Part shown: positions 15,895 to 61,714 of the stretch, piece after piece
Layout: the number at the start of each line of letters is the position of its first letter
Position numbering within the stretch: the stretch's first letter is position 1
Assembly (NCBI RefSeq): GCF_000263595.1
Contig: NZ_ADES01000011.1
Span: forward strand, 62,001-126,000
Length of the DNA: 64,000 nt
DNA from: Gardnerella vaginalis 1500E
GTDB lineage: Bacteria; Actinomycetota; Actinomycetes; Actinomycetales; Bifidobacteriaceae
Direction of reading: 5' to 3'
Notes under the pieces: model-generated
What the model was told of the DNA's origin: nothing
The model's database searches: none
What the model saw: the letters and a program-made list of their open reading frames with translations, nothing else
Position numbers and translations under genes: made by a program

Positions 15895-16686
15895 TTAAAG
15901 CTGGTTGTCTGGATCTTCGTCATAGCTTACGGGGCCTAGAAGGATATTTTCGCAAGCATTGATAATAATCATAAGAATTGTAGTAAGAGCAATTATTGCG
16001 ATTGTAGCAGAAAAAATAAGCGGAGTTCTAAACGAATTATAAGCAAACTGTAACCAAATGCCTAATCCGTTTCTTGCTCCTAAATATTCTGCTGTTGCTG
16101 CGGTTCCAAAAACGTATGCTGCGCTGATTCGAATTCCGCCAAAAATTTGTCGTGCTGCGACTCGTAGCTTAACGTGCCACAAAGTCCATGTTTGACTAGC
16201 TCCGCACGTTAAAGCAACATCGCTATAAAAGCTTGGTACGGCATCTAATCCGCGAATTGTTTGCACTGCAATAGGGAACATGCTAAAAATCATAACTATT
16301 GCAATTTTCCCAGACATTTCAAAACCAAACCAAATCAAAAAAATTGGTGCAATAGAAATAAGCGGCATGGTTTGAGCTGCGCATAAAAGCGGGAAAAGTG
16401 CAGATTTTATAAGTTTAAAAACGTGGAAAGCAACGCCTAAAAGAATGCCAACTAAAATAGCCAACGCAAAACCAATAAGTGTTTCCTGCGTTGTTATCAA
16501 AGCTGCCGGCCACAAGGTTGGTAAAGCTTCAACAGTGGCTTCTGCAATAGAAGTTGGTGTAGGAATCAAATTTTGTGATATTCCAGAATAGGTGCATGCT
16601 ATTTGCCACAAAATAAGCAGAATTATTACGGATATTATAGTTGGCAGATACTTTAAAAGCATGCGTTTTAAACGCGATTGCGTCAT
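15895..16686 (-). CDS. ABC transporter permease (ThiX/SsuC/TauC type)
   Basis: Inner-membrane permease of the BPD_transp_1 family, 263 aa with about six helices. The cytoplasmic EAA-like loop is ALTCGASQTWTLWHVKLRVAARQIFGGIRIS. This family moves nitrate, sulfonates, taurine, thiamin precursors and similar small molecules. The likely partner lipoprotein is encoded divergently at 16990. No ATPase gene is adjacent, so it must borrow one. The gene is alone on the minus strand. Confidence 0.88.
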   Translation of the reverse strand: MTQSRLKRMLLKYLPTIISVIILLILWQIACTYSGISQNLIPTPTSIAEATVEALPTLWPAALITTQETLIGFALAILVGILLGVAFHVFKLIKSALFPLLCAAQTMPLISIAPIFLIWFGFEMSGKIAIVMIFSMFPIAVQTIRGLDAVPSFYSDVALTCGASQTWTLWHVKLRVAARQIFGGIRISAAYVFGTAATAEYLGARNGLGIWLQFAYNSFRTPLIFSATIAIIALTTILMIIINACENILLGPVSYDEDPDNQL

Positions 16687-16849
16687 ATAAATTCAATTCC
16701 TTTCGCTTAAAAATGCGATTGCTGCCCCAATCGCCACAATAAAACGAGATTAGCACGTATATTCTATTAGAACCGCACAACTTAAGATGTACTTAAGTAA
16801 GTTTTGCTTATTTGTCGCTTATTTCGTGCATAATCTAAATGTTTCGTGA

Positions 16850-16989
16850 GTCAATGTGTGGCAAACCGCAGCAAAGTTTTTCTTTGCTCGGGGGCATTGA
16901 ACGGCGCGGGCTAGGCCCTTAATACCGTTTTCTGCCAAGTCCGTGTCACTTTCCCAGAAGAACGGTACTAGAACAAAAGTAGGGAACTC
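16850..16989 (+). ncRNA. Structured leader RNA of unknown class upstream of an NMT1-like gene
   Basis: Several nested helices are visible: CAATG/CATTG closing an inner GCAAAG-TTTTT-CTTTGC hairpin (about 16854-16899), GGGC-TAG-GCCC near 16910, and TACCGTTTTCTG (16923-16934) with CAGAAGAACGGTA (16955-16967), a 12-bp helix with one bulge. The ribosome site TAGGGA lies 13 bases after the last helix. I could not match it to the TPP, FMN, cobalamin, SAM, lysine or purine consensus. The gene-free 16687-16849 stretch should hold divergent promoters. Confidence 0.5.
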
Positions 16990-18042
16990 ATGAATATGCG
17001 TATTTTTAAGCGTACTCTTGCTGTTATTCTTTCTGTATGCTGTGCATTTTCTTTCTCGGCATGTGGGTCTACTAGCGCTAATAATAACGCTAATCTTCGC
17101 AAAGTATCTTTTATGCTATTTTGGGCGCCGGATACTAATCATATTGGTATTTATGTTGCAAAGCATAAGGGCTGGTTTAAAGATGCAGGTTTAGATGTAA
17201 ATATTCTTGCTGTTGCTCAAACCGGTTCAGAGCATGCTGTAGATAGTGGTGCTGCAGACTTTGCGCTTAGTACTTTAACTAATGCTGCTGATTTCTCAAC
17301 TAAGGGAGCGAATCTTGAGCAAGTTATGCAAGTTCAGCAAAAGCCAAGTGCAATATGGTGTTCGCTTGCAAAAAACAATAAGATTCATTCTCCAAAAGAC
17401 TTTGATGGACGTACTTTTGCAACATTTGGTTCAGCTGAAGGTGATGCTGTTATTCGCAGAATGATTCAGCATGATGGTGGCGAAGGTAAGTTCGATAAAG
17501 TAACAGTTGGTACTTCTACATTCCGCACTCTTGAATCAGGTAAGGCTGATTTTGGTGGATTCTACGGCACTTGGGAAGGTGTTCAGTCGGAGATGTTTGG
17601 ACCTAAGCTTCGCTGCTTTATGGAAGGTGATTATGGTGTTCCTGGCCAGCCGGACACTATTGGCATAATTACTAATAAGCGCACTATTGCTAAGGATCCT
17701 AAGCTTGTTCGCGCATTTGTTCAGACTGCAAAGCGTGGTTATGAATATGCTTATGCTCATCCGGATGAGGCTTCTGATATTTTGGTTAAGGAAGCAAAAG
17801 ATGCAAATCTTGATCCAAAGTTTGTTAAAAGAAGCATGAAGATGATTGTTGACGGACAATATTGGGGCAATCGTGCCGATATTAAGAGTGGAAAGTTTGT
17901 TTTTGGCACTAGCGATGTAAAGGGAGCTCAGGCTTACTTTGACTTCTTGAGTAAAGAAGGCGCTTATACTGATGCTAAAGGCAAAGTAACAAAGAAAACT
18001 CCTCAAGCTAAAGATTTGTCCACAAACAAATTCTTGAAGTAA
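16990..18042 (+). CDS. NMT1/THI5-like substrate-binding lipoprotein
   Basis: Solute-binding protein of an ABC importer. A lipoprotein signal peptide ends FSACGS (Cys about residue 26). The mature protein begins with the hallmark of the ThiY/RibY/NMT1 group: FWAPDTNHIGIYVAKHKGWFKDAGLDV. These proteins bind pyrimidine or flavin precursors such as formylaminopyrimidine, HMP or riboflavin; the true ligand here is unknown. It is divergent from the permease at 15895-16686 and sits behind a long structured leader that may sense the ligand. Confidence 0.88.
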   Translation: MNMRIFKRTLAVILSVCCAFSFSACGSTSANNNANLRKVSFMLFWAPDTNHIGIYVAKHKGWFKDAGLDVNILAVAQTGSEHAVDSGAADFALSTLTNAADFSTKGANLEQVMQVQQKPSAIWCSLAKNNKIHSPKDFDGRTFATFGSAEGDAVIRRMIQHDGGEGKFDKVTVGTSTFRTLESGKADFGGFYGTWEGVQSEMFGPKLRCFMEGDYGVPGQPDTIGIITNKRTIAKDPKLVRAFVQTAKRGYEYAYAHPDEASDILVKEAKDANLDPKFVKRSMKMIVDGQYWGNRADIKSGKFVFGTSDVKGAQAYFDFLSKEGAYTDAKGKVTKKTPQAKDLSTNKFLK

Positions 18043-22431: not shown

Positions 22432-23286
22432 TTACTGTAACGCTTCTCTAAGCTCATCTTCTATTTCACTATGATTTACAGGACGATTTTGAGCATCAAG
22501 ATTCTCGCGATTAATATGCCATTGCTTATAAATCTCACCATTTTTAATCATAAGAATTCGGTCAGAAAGTCTCACAGCTTCCGCAATATCGTGCGTAACC
22601 ATAAGCGTGCTCCAGCCGTATTCAGCTTGAAGCTTATTAAGCAAATCTTGCATATCGAATCTAGTAAGAGCATCCAAAGCGCCAAAAGGCTCGTCAAGCA
22701 ACAATAATTCAGGATTTCTAACTAAAGCTCTTGCTAAAGATACGCGCTGCTGCTGGCCGCCAGAAAGCTGAGACGGCCACTTGTTATCGTAGTCTTCAAG
22801 CTGCATTTGGCAAAGCGCTAAATGCGCAATATCCTCAAGCTCTTGCTTACTTGCTTCCATGCCAAAAATAACATTTTTGCTCACAGAAAGCCAAGGTATT
22901 AATCTCGCATCTTGGAAACCAATAGCCTGACGACTTGTGGCGTAAATGCTACCTTCAGTAGGAGTAAGAAGTCCTGAAATTATTTTCAAAAGCGTCGTTT
23001 TTCCGCAGCCAGATCTTCCTACAAGAGAAACAAACTCACCTTGCTTGATGCTCATCGTAACGTTTTTTAACACGAAAGTAGAGTTATCTGCAGAATTATT
23101 TTCAGCATTTTTAATTGTGTTGCTACTTTCGGCGTTATTAAAAGAGATTCCAAGATTCTCCATAGTAACGCAGTATGTGTTATTTTTTTCGTTAGATGCA
23201 AGAGTTTGTGTGGAAGATTCTTTAGAAACTTCCACAGAATCGTTTTTTGCAGTGCGCTTTTGAAACATGTTCTTGAAACTAGTCAT
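22432..23286 (-). CDS. ABC transporter ATPase of a TPP-riboswitch-controlled importer (ThiZ/SsuB type)
   Basis: Energises the importer encoded just upstream. After a ~45-residue Ser/Asn-rich N-terminal extension the ATPase core has Walker A GRSGCGKTT, signature LSGGQQQRVSLARAL, Walker B LLLLDEPFGALDA and H-loop VTHDIAEAV. Third gene of the permease-lipoprotein-ATPase operon, 21 bases after the lipoprotein gene. Placing it in thiamin uptake rests on the riboswitch at the operon start, not on the ATPase itself. It might also serve the orphan permease at 15895; that is a guess. Confidence 0.9.
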   Translation of the reverse strand: MTSFKNMFQKRTAKNDSVEVSKESSTQTLASNEKNNTYCVTMENLGISFNNAESSNTIKNAENNSADNSTFVLKNVTMSIKQGEFVSLVGRSGCGKTTLLKIISGLLTPTEGSIYATSRQAIGFQDARLIPWLSVSKNVIFGMEASKQELEDIAHLALCQMQLEDYDNKWPSQLSGGQQQRVSLARALVRNPELLLLDEPFGALDALTRFDMQDLLNKLQAEYGWSTLMVTHDIAEAVRLSDRILMIKNGEIYKQWHINRENLDAQNRPVNHSEIEDELREALQ

Positions 23287-23307
23287 TGTTTATGAGTTAG
23301 TAGATGC

Positions 23308-24312
23308 TTATTTGCTGCAGTCCATTACAGAATCATCCAAATTCTTTGGAGTCTGCTTAATCAAACCGTACTTAACGTATTCTTTAGCCTGAACTTTCAT
23401 CATTTCCAAGCCTTTAGCGTCGATTGGTCTAATTGTTGGATTATCAAACTTTTCAATCTGCTTAATAATCGTGTCAGATGCTCCAAGCTGCTTATAAGCG
23501 TTGCCAATAACATTCTTTTCTTTGTGAGACTTCTTTGCTTCGCGCACAAGAGCCTTATACATTTTCTTCACAAGCTCAGGATGCTTCTTAGCGAAGCTCT
23601 TGGAAACAATATGAATAGTAACGTTCATATTGCCATACTTCTTAGCGTTTACAAGCAACTTAGAACCAGGAGTAGTCATAGCTGCTGCAAGATTCTGGTC
23701 GAAGGAAGAAATTGCGTCAATCTGTCCAGAAGAGAAAGCAGCCTGGAAGTTTTTAGGGCTCATTTCAACTTTTTTAACTTTAGAAACGTCTAAACCGCTT
23801 TTATCGAAAGCGCGATGAAGCATGTAGTCGCCAGTGTCACCATTGTGAATAATAGCAACTTTCTTTCCATACAAGTCTTTTAAGCTTTTTACGCCGCTTT
23901 TTGCAGATGCTACAATTCCCTGAGAATCACCATTGTAGTATTCGAGTGCAAAAGCAACCCAAGGCTGACCTTCGGCAATAAGATCAATAAAACGGCCAGT
24001 TCCTGTAGTTGTTGCGTCTGCGCTACCGCTCATTACTGCAGTAAGTCCATCAACTGGAGTGTAAGGACCAGTGTAAGTGACTTTAGACTTTCCAAACTCT
24101 TCCTGCAAGAACTTTTCGTTCTTCAATGTAGTTAAATAGTTTGCTGTAGAAAGATAAGCAACACGCATAGTGCCAGTATCTTCTTTTGTAGAAGACGCGT
24201 TGCTTGAAGATTTCTGAGCGCTTCCGCATGAAGCTAGTGCAACTGCTGTGCAAAGAGCACACAATGCGCAAATAGCACGCTTGCTTGCGCTTTTTAATTT
24301 GAAATTAACCAT
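23308..24312 (-). CDS. Substrate-binding lipoprotein of the TPP-controlled ABC importer
   Basis: Solute-binding protein of the SsuA/TauA/NMT1 fold. The signal peptide ends ALASCGS with the lipid-modified Cys about residue 29. The body has the family's periplasmic-binding pattern (GLTAVMSGSADATTTG, LKDLYGKKVAIIHNGD, QAAFSSGQIDAISSFD). The frame is open upstream to 24462, but the ATG at 24312 follows AAGGAG and starts the signal peptide properly. The riboswitch upstream points to thiamin, HMP or another precursor as ligand. Confidence 0.9.
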   Translation of the reverse strand: MVNFKLKSASKRAICALCALCTAVALASCGSAQKSSSNASSTKEDTGTMRVAYLSTANYLTTLKNEKFLQEEFGKSKVTYTGPYTPVDGLTAVMSGSADATTTGTGRFIDLIAEGQPWVAFALEYYNGDSQGIVASAKSGVKSLKDLYGKKVAIIHNGDTGDYMLHRAFDKSGLDVSKVKKVEMSPKNFQAAFSSGQIDAISSFDQNLAAAMTTPGSKLLVNAKKYGNMNVTIHIVSKSFAKKHPELVKKMYKALVREAKKSHKEKNVIGNAYKQLGASDTIIKQIEKFDNPTIRPIDAKGLEMMKVQAKEYVKYGLIKQTPKNLDDSVMDCSK

Positions 24313-24368
24313 AGTTGGCTCCTTTTTTGTGTTTATTATCTTGTGTTTCTTGTTTATTGTGTTTATTT

Positions 24369-25190
24369 TTAGGAAATTCTTCGTTCTGGCATGAATAAGT
24401 ATTCGAAAATATTTGCCGTAATTTCGGATCCAAGACCTGCAATTGCGTACATAATTATGCAAGCCATCATCTGATCCGGCCTAAAGAATTGTTGCGCTCT
24501 CGAAAGAATATAGCCGATTCCAATAGAAGAATTAACTGTTTCGCAAGTAACTAAAGCAACCCATGCGACGGAAATAGAAAAACGCAATCCAGTCATAAAA
24601 TTAGCAAGAGTTCCGCGCATAAAAATAGTGGTGAAAATAGTAGATTTTTTAATATGATAAGCCTTAGCTAGTTCAATAAGGCGAGGATCAATATTACGAA
24701 CACCATCGCGAATATTTACATACATAGGGCCAAAAACGCCCACTGCAATAAGCATAATCTTCATAAGCTCATCAACGCCAAGAAAAATAATAAGAAGAGG
24801 AGCTAGAGCAGGGAACGGTATTGAACGTATCATGTGGCTAGGCTTGTTTATTATTGTTTCGCCTATTGCGCTTCCTCCAGAAAGAATTCCGGCAGGAAGT
24901 GCAAACGCAATACCCAAAAGAAGACCTGCAACAACCCTAAAAACGCTTATTGCAAGAGACGGCCACAGTATTCCCTCATTGTGTAAATCTACGAAAGCTT
25001 TAATAACTTCGAAAGGTGAAGGCAAAGCGCGGTTTTCAACAGGACCGAGTGTAATAATAAACCAGCAAAAAACTATAACTATTGTAGAAATCCAAGCGAT
25101 AAAAGATTTTAATGGCTTATTTGCTTTTTTATTCGCTTGCTTCCTGTTTGCAATACACTCAGTTTTTCGCTCGCGAAAGTGGATATTCAT
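24369..25190 (-). CDS. ABC transporter permease of the TPP-controlled importer (ThiX type)
   Basis: First gene of the operon, 273 aa with about six helices and the cytoplasmic coupling loop LAKAYHIKKSTIFTTIFMRGTLANFMTGLRFS. The N-terminus is long and basic (about 30 residues before helix 1). The ATG stands 7 bases after GAAGGGAT, which is the 3' strand of the TPP riboswitch. Ligand binding should therefore hide the ribosome site and shut off translation when thiamin pyrophosphate is plentiful. Confidence 0.9.
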   Translation of the reverse strand: MNIHFRERKTECIANRKQANKKANKPLKSFIAWISTIVIVFCWFIITLGPVENRALPSPFEVIKAFVDLHNEGILWPSLAISVFRVVAGLLLGIAFALPAGILSGGSAIGETIINKPSHMIRSIPFPALAPLLIIFLGVDELMKIMLIAVGVFGPMYVNIRDGVRNIDPRLIELAKAYHIKKSTIFTTIFMRGTLANFMTGLRFSISVAWVALVTCETVNSSIGIGYILSRAQQFFRPDQMMACIIMYAIAGLGSEITANIFEYLFMPERRIS

Positions 25191-26739
<1,549 letters not shown>

Positions 26740-60202: not shown

Positions 60203-60229
60203 ATGACAGCCTCAATGCGTTTAAGATAA
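60203..60229 (+). CDS. mef leader peptide MTASMRLR
   Basis: Nine codons including stop behind AGGAGG encode MTASMRLR, the leader peptide known upstream of mef in Mega-type elements. Macrolide-stalled ribosomes on it shift the leader RNA away from the terminator fold, which induces the operon by transcription antitermination. Confidence 0.92.
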   Translation: MTASMRLR

Positions 60230-60239
60230 GCTGGCAATA

Positions 60240-60276
60240 AAAAAAGCAGAATCTATACCCGATGATAGGCTTTTTT
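60240..60276 (+). terminator. First attenuator hairpin of mef
   Basis: AAAAAAGC (60240-60247) pairs with GCTTTTTT (60269-60276), with an inner CTAT/ATAG stem. It ends in a T-run, just after the leader peptide stop, as expected for attenuation. Confidence 0.85.
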
Positions 60277-60392
60277 GTTGTGCTTATTTATACGATATTG
60301 AGCATTCATTAGTTACGGTGAGGATATTGGTTATTTAACTATACCTTTATTTAACTATGTCTTTAATATGAATGTTTCCAAATTGTATGTAT

Positions 60393-60434
60393 GCAGACCA
60401 AAAGCCACATTGTGGGGTTTGGCCTGCATTTTTT
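60393..60434 (+). terminator. Second terminator-like hairpin in the mef leader
   Basis: GCAG-CCAAA-GCCAC pairs with GTGG-TTTGG-CTGC (60393-60427) with small bulges, followed by ATTTTTT. It lies 62 bases before mef. It may be a further attenuation point. Confidence 0.75.
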
Positions 60435-60496
60435 ATTGCCTAGAATGCTATTCAAAATAGAAATTCAAGCAAAATAATATGCAGGAGATAATATAA

Positions 60497-61714
60497 ATGG
60501 AAAAATACAACAATTGGAAACGAAAATTTTATGCAATATGGGCAGGGCAAGCAGTATCATTAATCACTAGTGCCATCCTGCAAATGGCGATTATTTTTTA
60601 CCTTACAGAAAAAACAGGATCTGCGATGGTCTTGTCTATGGCTTCATTAGTAGGTTTTTTACCCTATGCGATTTTGGGACCTGCCATTGGTGTGCTAGTG
60701 GATCGTCATGATAGGAAGAAGATAATGATTGGTGCCGATTTAATTATCGCAGCAGCTGGTGCAGTGCTTGCTATTGTTGCATTCTGTATGGAGCTACCTG
60801 TCTGGATGATTATGATAGTATTGTTTATCCGTAGCATTGGAACAGCTTTTCATACCCCAGCACTCAATGCGGTTACACCACTTTTAGTACCAGAAGAACA
60901 GCTAACGAAATGCGCAGGCTATAGTCAGTCTTTGCAGTCTATAAGCTATATTGTTAGTCCGGCAGTTGCAGCACTCTTATACTCCGTTTGGGATTTAAAT
61001 GCTATTATTGCCATCGACGTATTGGGTGCTGTGATTGCATCTATTACGGTAGCAATTGTACGTATACCTAAGCTGGGTAATCAAGTGCAAAGTTTAGAAC
61101 CAAATTTCATAAGGGAGATGAAAGAAGGAGTTGTGGTTCTGAGACAAAACAAAGGATTGTTTGCCTTATTACTCTTAGGAACACTATATACTTTTGTTTA
61201 TATGCCAATCAATGCACTATTTCCTTTAATAAGCATGGAACACTTTAATGGAACGCCTGTGCATATTTCTATTACGGAAATTTCCTTTGCATTTGGGATG
61301 CTAGCAGGAGGCTTATTATTAGGAAGATTAGGGGGCTTCGAAAAGCATGTATTACTAATAACAAGTTCATTTTTTATAATGGGGACCAGTTTAGCCGTTT
61401 CGGGAATACTTCCTCCAAATGGATTTGTAATATTCGTAGTTTGCTGTGCAATAATGGGGCTTTCGGTGCCATTTTATAGCGGTGTGCAAACAGCTCTTTT
61501 TCAGGAGAAAATTAAGCCTGAATATTTAGGACGTGTATTTTCTTTGATCGGAAGTATCATGTCACTTGCTATGCCAATTGGGTTAATTCTTTCTGGATTC
61601 TTTGCTGATAAAATCGGTGTAAATCATTGGTTTTTACTATCAGGTATTTTAATTATTGGCATTGCTATAGTTTGCCAAATGATAACTGAGGTTAGAAAAT
61701 TAGATTTAAAATAA
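60497..61714 (+). CDS. mef(A): Macrolide efflux MFS transporter Mef(A)/Mef(E)
   Basis: Proton-driven exporter of 14- and 15-membered macrolides, 405 aa with 12 predicted helices. The N-terminus MEKYNNWKRKFYAIWAGQAV and motif A-like GVLVDRHDRKKIM match Mef of streptococci as I know it. The ATG follows AGGAGA. The subclass mef(A) versus mef(E) needs an alignment. It is induced through the upstream leader and works with Msr(D), encoded next. Confidence 0.95.
   Translation: MEKYNNWKRKFYAIWAGQAVSLITSAILQMAIIFYLTEKTGSAMVLSMASLVGFLPYAILGPAIGVLVDRHDRKKIMIGADLIIAAAGAVLAIVAFCMELPVWMIMIVLFIRSIGTAFHTPALNAVTPLLVPEEQLTKCAGYSQSLQSISYIVSPAVAALLYSVWDLNAIIAIDVLGAVIASITVAIVRIPKLGNQVQSLEPNFIREMKEGVVVLRQNKGLFALLLLGTLYTFVYMPINALFPLISMEHFNGTPVHISITEISFAFGMLAGGLLLGRLGGFEKHVLLITSSFFIMGTSLAVSGILPPNGFVIFVVCCAIMGLSVPFYSGVQTALFQEKIKPEYLGRVFSLIGSIMSLAMPIGLILSGFFADKIGVNHWFLLSGILIIGIAIVCQMITEVRKLDLK

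Follow-up and report, generated by a model that had tools for sequence, protein, structure and literature searches.

Several described riboswitches resemble the leader reported here in pathway, neighbouring gene or likely mode of action. The TPP riboswitch (RF00059) belongs to the same pathway and serves other thiamin operons in this organism. The HMP-PP riboswitch (thiS motif), found in Firmicutes, is a short hairpin within an intrinsic terminator and acts as an ON switch (Atilho et al. 2019, PMC6478431). It plausibly senses the same metabolite branch, and a pseudoknot was proposed there too (PMC6478431). The xanthine riboswitch (NMT1 motif; PMC7373994) is named for downstream genes of the NMT1/THI5 family. 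SAM-II and preQ1 types are translational riboswitches that sequester the Shine-Dalgarno (SD) sequence through an H-type pseudoknot beside or including it.

We analysed a 64,000-nt stretch of Gardnerella vaginalis 1500E DNA, called the window here, whose coordinates are used throughout. A preliminary description, made from the sequence alone, had placed a riboswitch-like leader at 16850-16989, before a gene for an NMT1/THI5-type binding protein. It regarded the leader as unlike TPP and other common classes, and named an Rfam scan and covariation in orthologous leaders as checks. We call the leader type A, the binding protein SBP1 and the neighbouring permease PERM1.

In the Rfam 15 scan, no family reached its gathering threshold in the leader and no match within E<=10 was meaningful, so the claimed dissimilarity held. 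The RF00059 covariance model did not match the leader even at E<=10. The sole TPP riboswitch match in the window, at 25180-25295 (-) with 66 bits, serves a second ABC importer, as the preliminary description had also stated. With no sequence or structure match to the TPP riboswitch, type A is set apart by its GUGGCAAAC/GGG internal loop and by the P3-P4 pseudoknot close to the SD. In contrast to the HMP-PP riboswitch, type A is about 140 nt long, lacks a terminator and is located at the SD. No U run follows P3/P4 and the leader ends at the SD and ATG, which leaves the terminator criterion of that class unmet. An NMT1/THI5-family gene lies downstream as in the xanthine class, but no Rfam match was obtained (the inclusion of that family in the library was not separately confirmed) and SBP1 resembles thiamin-pyrimidine binders. 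Type A would act like the SAM-II and preQ1 types through its SD-adjoining pseudoknot, but it has no sequence in common with them and adds a P1/P2 domain with its own conserved loop.

No earlier report of type A was found in the literature searched. The motifs of the 2017 set of 224 candidate RNAs were compared only through Rfam, and a prior description under another name could not be fully excluded. Type A is a good candidate for a new metabolite-sensor class outside the catalogued RNA families, with ligand binding inferred.

Position and fold of the type A leader

The covariance model R1 matched the leader with 111.4 bits (E 6.6e-28), the window sequence itself being one of its seeds. The match ended at 16989, the last base before the ATG at 16990, and the proposed coordinates held. 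In the relatives, a TATAAT or CATAAT box lies about 20 nt 5' of P1. This implied that the leader makes up approximately the whole 5' UTR. The features are listed in Table 1.

Table 1. Features of the SBP1-PERM1 region in window coordinates
Feature	Position	Strand	Basis or remark
PERM1, ABC permease, divergent partner	15895-16686	-	sequence, domain search
Hairpin GCGAUUG-GGGCAG-CAAUCGC, permease leader	16715-16734	-	conserved in Gardnerella
-10-like box CATAAT	16829-16834	+	from sequence; not experimentally mapped
Type A structured leader	16850-16989	+	R1 match 16843-16989
P1 5' strand UCAAUGU	16851-16857	+	99.5% paired in 56 sequences; 4/7 pairs compensatory
Internal-loop strand GUGGCAAAC, near-invariant	16858-16866	+	alignment A2
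P2 5' side	16867-16876	+	base pairs C16867, G16868; upper stem GCAAAG variable
P2 3' side	16882-16890	+	alignment
GGG, invariant, facing GUGGCAAAC between P1 and P2	16891-16893	+	alignment of leaders
P1 3' strand GCAUUGA	16894-16900	+	realigned 56-sequence pairing test
P3 5' strand, core GGCGCGG (16903-16909)	16903-16912	+	36 distinct covarying arm pairs
GGCCCU, conserved, within P3 loop	16914-16919	+	leader alignment
P4 5' strand ACCGUUUUCU	16924-16933	+	99.5% paired; 7/10 pairs compensatory
CUGCC, conserved, J4/3	16932-16936	+	alignment; first two bases belong to P4
P3 3' strand, core CCGUGUC (16941-16947)	16938-16947	+	covarying arm pairs
UUCCC, candidate anti-SD for GGGAA (16982-16986)	16951-16955	+	alignment columns 174-176/249-251
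P4 3' strand AGAAGAACGGU, bulged G16960	16956-16966	+	realigned 56-sequence pairing test
Shine-Dalgarno UAGGGAA	16980-16986	+	from sequence
SBP1, ThiY-like lipoprotein (NMT1/THI5), regulated gene	16990-18042	+	PF09084, E 3.2e-57

The 5' strand of P4 lies inside the P3 loop and its 3' strand follows P3, so P3 and P4 form an H-type pseudoknot adjoining the SD, with the second pseudoknot strand about 15 nt 5' of it. The preliminary description had proposed at least three nested helices. The helices proved real, but P4 crosses P3 and they are therefore not all nested. Its 12-bp bulged stem near the ribosome site held and corresponds to P4, the second helix of the pseudoknot. The full P4 pairs UACCGUU-UUCUG (16923-16934) with CAGAA-G-AACGGUA (16955-16967) over 12 bp, with one bulged G (16960). 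The conserved unpaired elements are GUGGCAAAC facing GGG, GGCCCU in the P3 loop, and CUGCC. The CCU of GGCCCU is complementary to the AGG of the SD and could serve as an alternative anti-SD, a pairing that is only inferred.

The minimum free energy (MFE) of 16835-16999 was -53.3 kcal/mol, and 2 of 200 dinucleotide shuffles were equally stable (z -2.6). The single-sequence fold is only mildly unusual, and the comparative evidence is decisive.

Comparative evidence for the fold

We aligned 47 leaders (A2) and built R1 with P1, P2 and P4, omitting P3. The 56 R1 matches, from three genera, were realigned for pair statistics. Standard pairs were formed in 98.3% of the P1, P2 and P4 cells, and double-sided compensatory changes occurred at 14 of the 20 modelled pairs (167 cells in total). 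The P2 pair C25-G96, for example, switches to G-C and U-A (alignments A2 and A5). None of 500 shuffles equalled the observed pairing, and control structures slid along the alignment paired at 35-55%. The 56-sequence alignment was fitted to the structure of the model and hence leans towards it, but a MAFFT alignment that was not so fitted gave the same picture for P1 and P4.

The P3 arms shift between clades on both the MAFFT and the covariance-model alignments, so this helix was tested with arms defined in each sequence. We found 36 distinct arm pairs with both arms co-varying, such as CGAACCG/CGGTTCG versus CGATCCG/CGGATCG. Same-sequence pairing exceeded all permutations (0/2000), a control inflated by the relatedness of the sequences. 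The SD can pair with UCCC in 47/47 sequences. This pairing is near-invariant with few changes and scored no better than permutation; it is too invariant to be proved by covariation.

Overall, the evolutionary evidence for a conserved type A fold is very strong, with compensatory changes in four helices across three genera. The leader has what is generally required of a riboswitch in sequence terms: a structured element in the 5' UTR that is conserved, shows compensatory changes and is tied to one function. The covariation check thus did not refute the earlier claim of a riboswitch-like leader, which is supported, with ligand binding unproven.

Distribution and linkage to SBP1

R1 detected type A in 54 of 112 Bifidobacterium/Gardnerella genomes, with one copy each. 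Eleven genomes of two sister genera also carried it, and three marginal extra matches were listed there. No copy beyond the genus was found in an order-level sample of 248 genomes, and none in a phylum-level sample of 376 genomes except in the organism's own genome. R1 likewise gave no match in an Arcanobacterium MAG whose SBP1 is 59% identical. A DNA search within the genus recovered the whole leader from Gardnerella-type genomes, and from more remote Bifidobacterium a core of 49 nt. Gardnerella greenwoodii (L167) is a close relative, with an SBP1 98% identical to that of the window.

SBP1 orthologs were present in 110 of the 112 genus genomes. Their upstream regions sorted into type A, a type B not related to it, and a small remainder in which neither lies immediately 5' of SBP1. 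All examined type A copies lay directly 5' of SBP1, while PERM1 was divergent, co-directional or absent nearby. Because the motif stays with SBP1 whatever the position of PERM1, we assigned it to the SBP1 transcript. A role as leader of the divergent permease was rejected, since the motif remains upstream of SBP1 even in loci with a co-directional permease or none.

SBP1, PERM1 and their genomic context

The assignment of the downstream gene to the NMT1/THI5-type binding proteins held (Table 1). By phmmer, the nearest solved relatives of SBP1 were 3ix1 (ThiY; 4.7e-20) and 4nmy (5e-34). Its predicted fold (pLDDT 82.7) matched ThiY 3ix1 with Z 33.1 and thiamin-bound 4nmy with Z 32.7. The fungal Thi5 HMP synthases followed at Z 26.7-30.4, and SsuA-type proteins were lower, at about 22. 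SBP1 thus met the test of a ThiY relation in both fold and sequence, and its best fold matches bind N-formylaminopyrimidine or thiamin. The DWTPNTNH motif has a role in the pocket of ThiY-type binding proteins. The canonical LDWTPNTNH/DWTPNTNH motif, as in 4nmy, is absent from the window SBP1, which has FWAPDTNH. Type A orthologs mostly have SWAPDTNH, and one type B ortholog retains DWTPNTNH. With Phe or Ser replacing Asp in this pocket motif, the substrate of SBP1 may differ from that of ThiY.

At locus L052, a single strand carries in order a TPP riboswitch, thiM (hydroxyethylthiazole kinase), a thiE-thiD fusion, a Thiamine_BP protein, PERM1 and SBP1. Ten further genomes that have no leader immediately 5' of SBP1 carry a TPP-thiE unit on the same strand, 8-17 kb upstream. 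Sugar-utilisation genes intervene at L114, so the two are linked in these genomes but a single operon is not shown. ThiC, which makes HMP, was encoded by 65 of the 96 genomes that carried a type A leader or an exact type B core, and by 3 of the 16 that lacked both (Fisher p 5e-4, uncorrected for phylogeny). Among these three, one had no upstream sequence, one had a variant type B core and one lacked SBP1. The remaining 12 SBP1-bearing genomes with neither element by these scans all lacked ThiC, and in two of them (L052 and L059) the permease is preceded by a relaxed type B core. In the window's own genome thiC and thiE are present, and none of the five TPP riboswitch matches (three above cut-off) is at SBP1. 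In many genomes of the genus the thiE and thiC matches fall in one frame of about 900 aa (e.g. G000:C5:143391-145850) and are apparently fused.

In 38 loci from three genera, the gene directly 3' of SBP1 encodes a nucleoside hydrolase (IU_nuc_hydro), for example at L111 6109-7422. The hydrolase gene occurs in many type A and leaderless loci and is absent from Gardnerella and from all type B loci.

The second importer of the window (22432-25295 (-)), under the TPP riboswitch, is an NMT1/SsuA-like ABC system of permease, lipoprotein and ATPase. No ATPase gene lies near SBP1 and PERM1, and this system may provide theirs.

Taken together, genome context and structure matches make it likely that SBP1 and PERM1 form a thiamin-pyrimidine (HMP-type) importer, the transported substrate being inferred. 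This is favoured over an orphan transporter of unknown class, whose ligand the preliminary description had suggested the leader might sense.

A second leader type at the same importer

Type B is an SD-pairing leader, unrelated to type A, found 5' of a 42-50% identical SBP1 in a second species group (L075-L107). It contains a 9-bp hairpin, the GUGGCAG loop of which is invariant, and a second covarying helix (0/2000 permutations). Its invariant CUCACCUU is complementary to the SD AAGGUGA, and the consensus GCGCGGRCUCCUCACCUU lies inside the covarying helix. Type B also precedes PERM1 (L047-L049, L052, L058, L059, L062, L065, L068, L069, L074, L160, L161 and L164). Where type A genomes have a divergent permease, that gene is preceded by the type B core lacking the first hairpin, as it is in L052, L059 and L074 and in a sister genus. 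At the permeases of L052 and L059 this core was detected with a relaxed type B pattern, having been missed by the exact one. The permease leader of the window keeps only the first-hairpin-like element of type B. Its GGGCAG loop resembles that of the type B hairpin, and its stem covaries among Gardnerella.

Two unrelated SD-proximal RNA elements are therefore attached to one importer. On a bolder reading, types A and B would represent two new and mutually unrelated classes of riboswitch that respond to one thiamin-pyrimidine metabolite. They would regulate both parts of the importer, binding protein and permease, and in some genomes would do so from opposite strands of one intergenic region. 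We consider this conceivable, with the balance tipping against it.

Elsewhere in the window, 60206-60436 (+) matched Rfam sRNA_1300, a family named for Enterococcus, with 275 bits. Directly 3' of the match is an MFS gene (60497-61714) whose product resembles Mef-type macrolide efflux proteins, and the match is probably the leader of that gene on an acquired element.

Proposed mechanism

A conserved fold with compensatory changes, an exclusive link to SBP1, no known-family match and a thiamin-pyrimidine transporter context are shown for type A. From these, we lean by a modest margin towards a translational riboswitch, probably OFF, for a metabolite of the thiamin-pyrimidine branch. Ligand binding, ligand identity and the OFF direction are all inferred. 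The aptamer would comprise P1/P2 with the GUGGCAAAC/GGG internal loop and the P3-P4 pseudoknot. Ligand binding would stabilise the pseudoknot and promote base pairing of the SD (AGGGAA), either to the UCCC of pseudoknot loop 3 or to the CCU of the P3 loop, reducing the translation of SBP1. SBP1 and PERM1 would import a thiamin pyrimidine, which may be HMP, formylaminopyrimidine or thiamin. Since the pair is taken to import such a compound, the likeliest ligand would come from the same branch (HMP, HMP-P/PP, FAMP or thiamin) and would exert feedback on precursor uptake. TPP seems less likely, because the genome already runs TPP riboswitches on other thiamin genes; this too is an inference. There are no binding, probing or expression data, the SD-UCCC pairing is nearly invariant, and IU_nuc_hydro is not explained by an HMP ligand. 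P3/P4 might equally be a protein-binding or a constitutive translation-control fold.

Alternative explanations

It remains possible that type A binds a regulatory protein or the ribosome and not a small molecule, the pseudoknot being a recognition fold that gates the SD. Its restriction to one bacterial family and one gene is common for protein-bound leaders. GUGGCA is highly conserved in both types despite their different structures (UGUGGCAAAC versus GGUGGCAGCA; alignments A2 and A3), perhaps as a shared protein signature. However, SBP1 is a lipoprotein without RNA-binding function, which argues against an autogenous loop, the complex internal loop and pseudoknot are typical of aptamers, and riboswitches control the rest of the thiamin regulon. 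A riboswitch for a non-thiamin ligand imported by SBP1, such as a nucleoside, purine or nicotinamide riboside, would fit the hydrolase gene after SBP1 and the Ser or Phe in place of the canonical Asp. We regard it as unlikely, as the top fold matches of SBP1 are all thiamin-pyrimidine proteins, the neighbourhood contains thiM, thiE-thiD and Thiamine_BP, and Gardnerella and all type B loci have the transporter without the hydrolase.

A diverged TPP, HMP-PP/thiS or xanthine/NMT1 riboswitch missed by the Rfam models would share its pathway or downstream protein family with type A. This is very improbable: cmscan gave no meaningful match at E<=10, the terminator and U run of the HMP-PP class are lacking, and type A has its own strongly conserved architecture. 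Chance intergenic folding, or conservation of a DNA promoter or protein site, could be entertained from the single-sequence z value, which is merely -2.6, but the compensatory changes in four helices across three genera all but exclude it.

Implications

As an orphan riboswitch candidate, type A is well defined: its consensus is complete, it contains a pseudoknot, it is tied to one regulated gene and the list of likely ligands is short. If it senses HMP or a relative, it would add to the TPP and HMP-PP classes another RNA sensor of thiamin metabolism, one that operates alongside TPP riboswitches within a single cell. Type A is carried by both Bifidobacteria and vaginal Gardnerella, and hence bears on their competition for vitamin B1 precursors.
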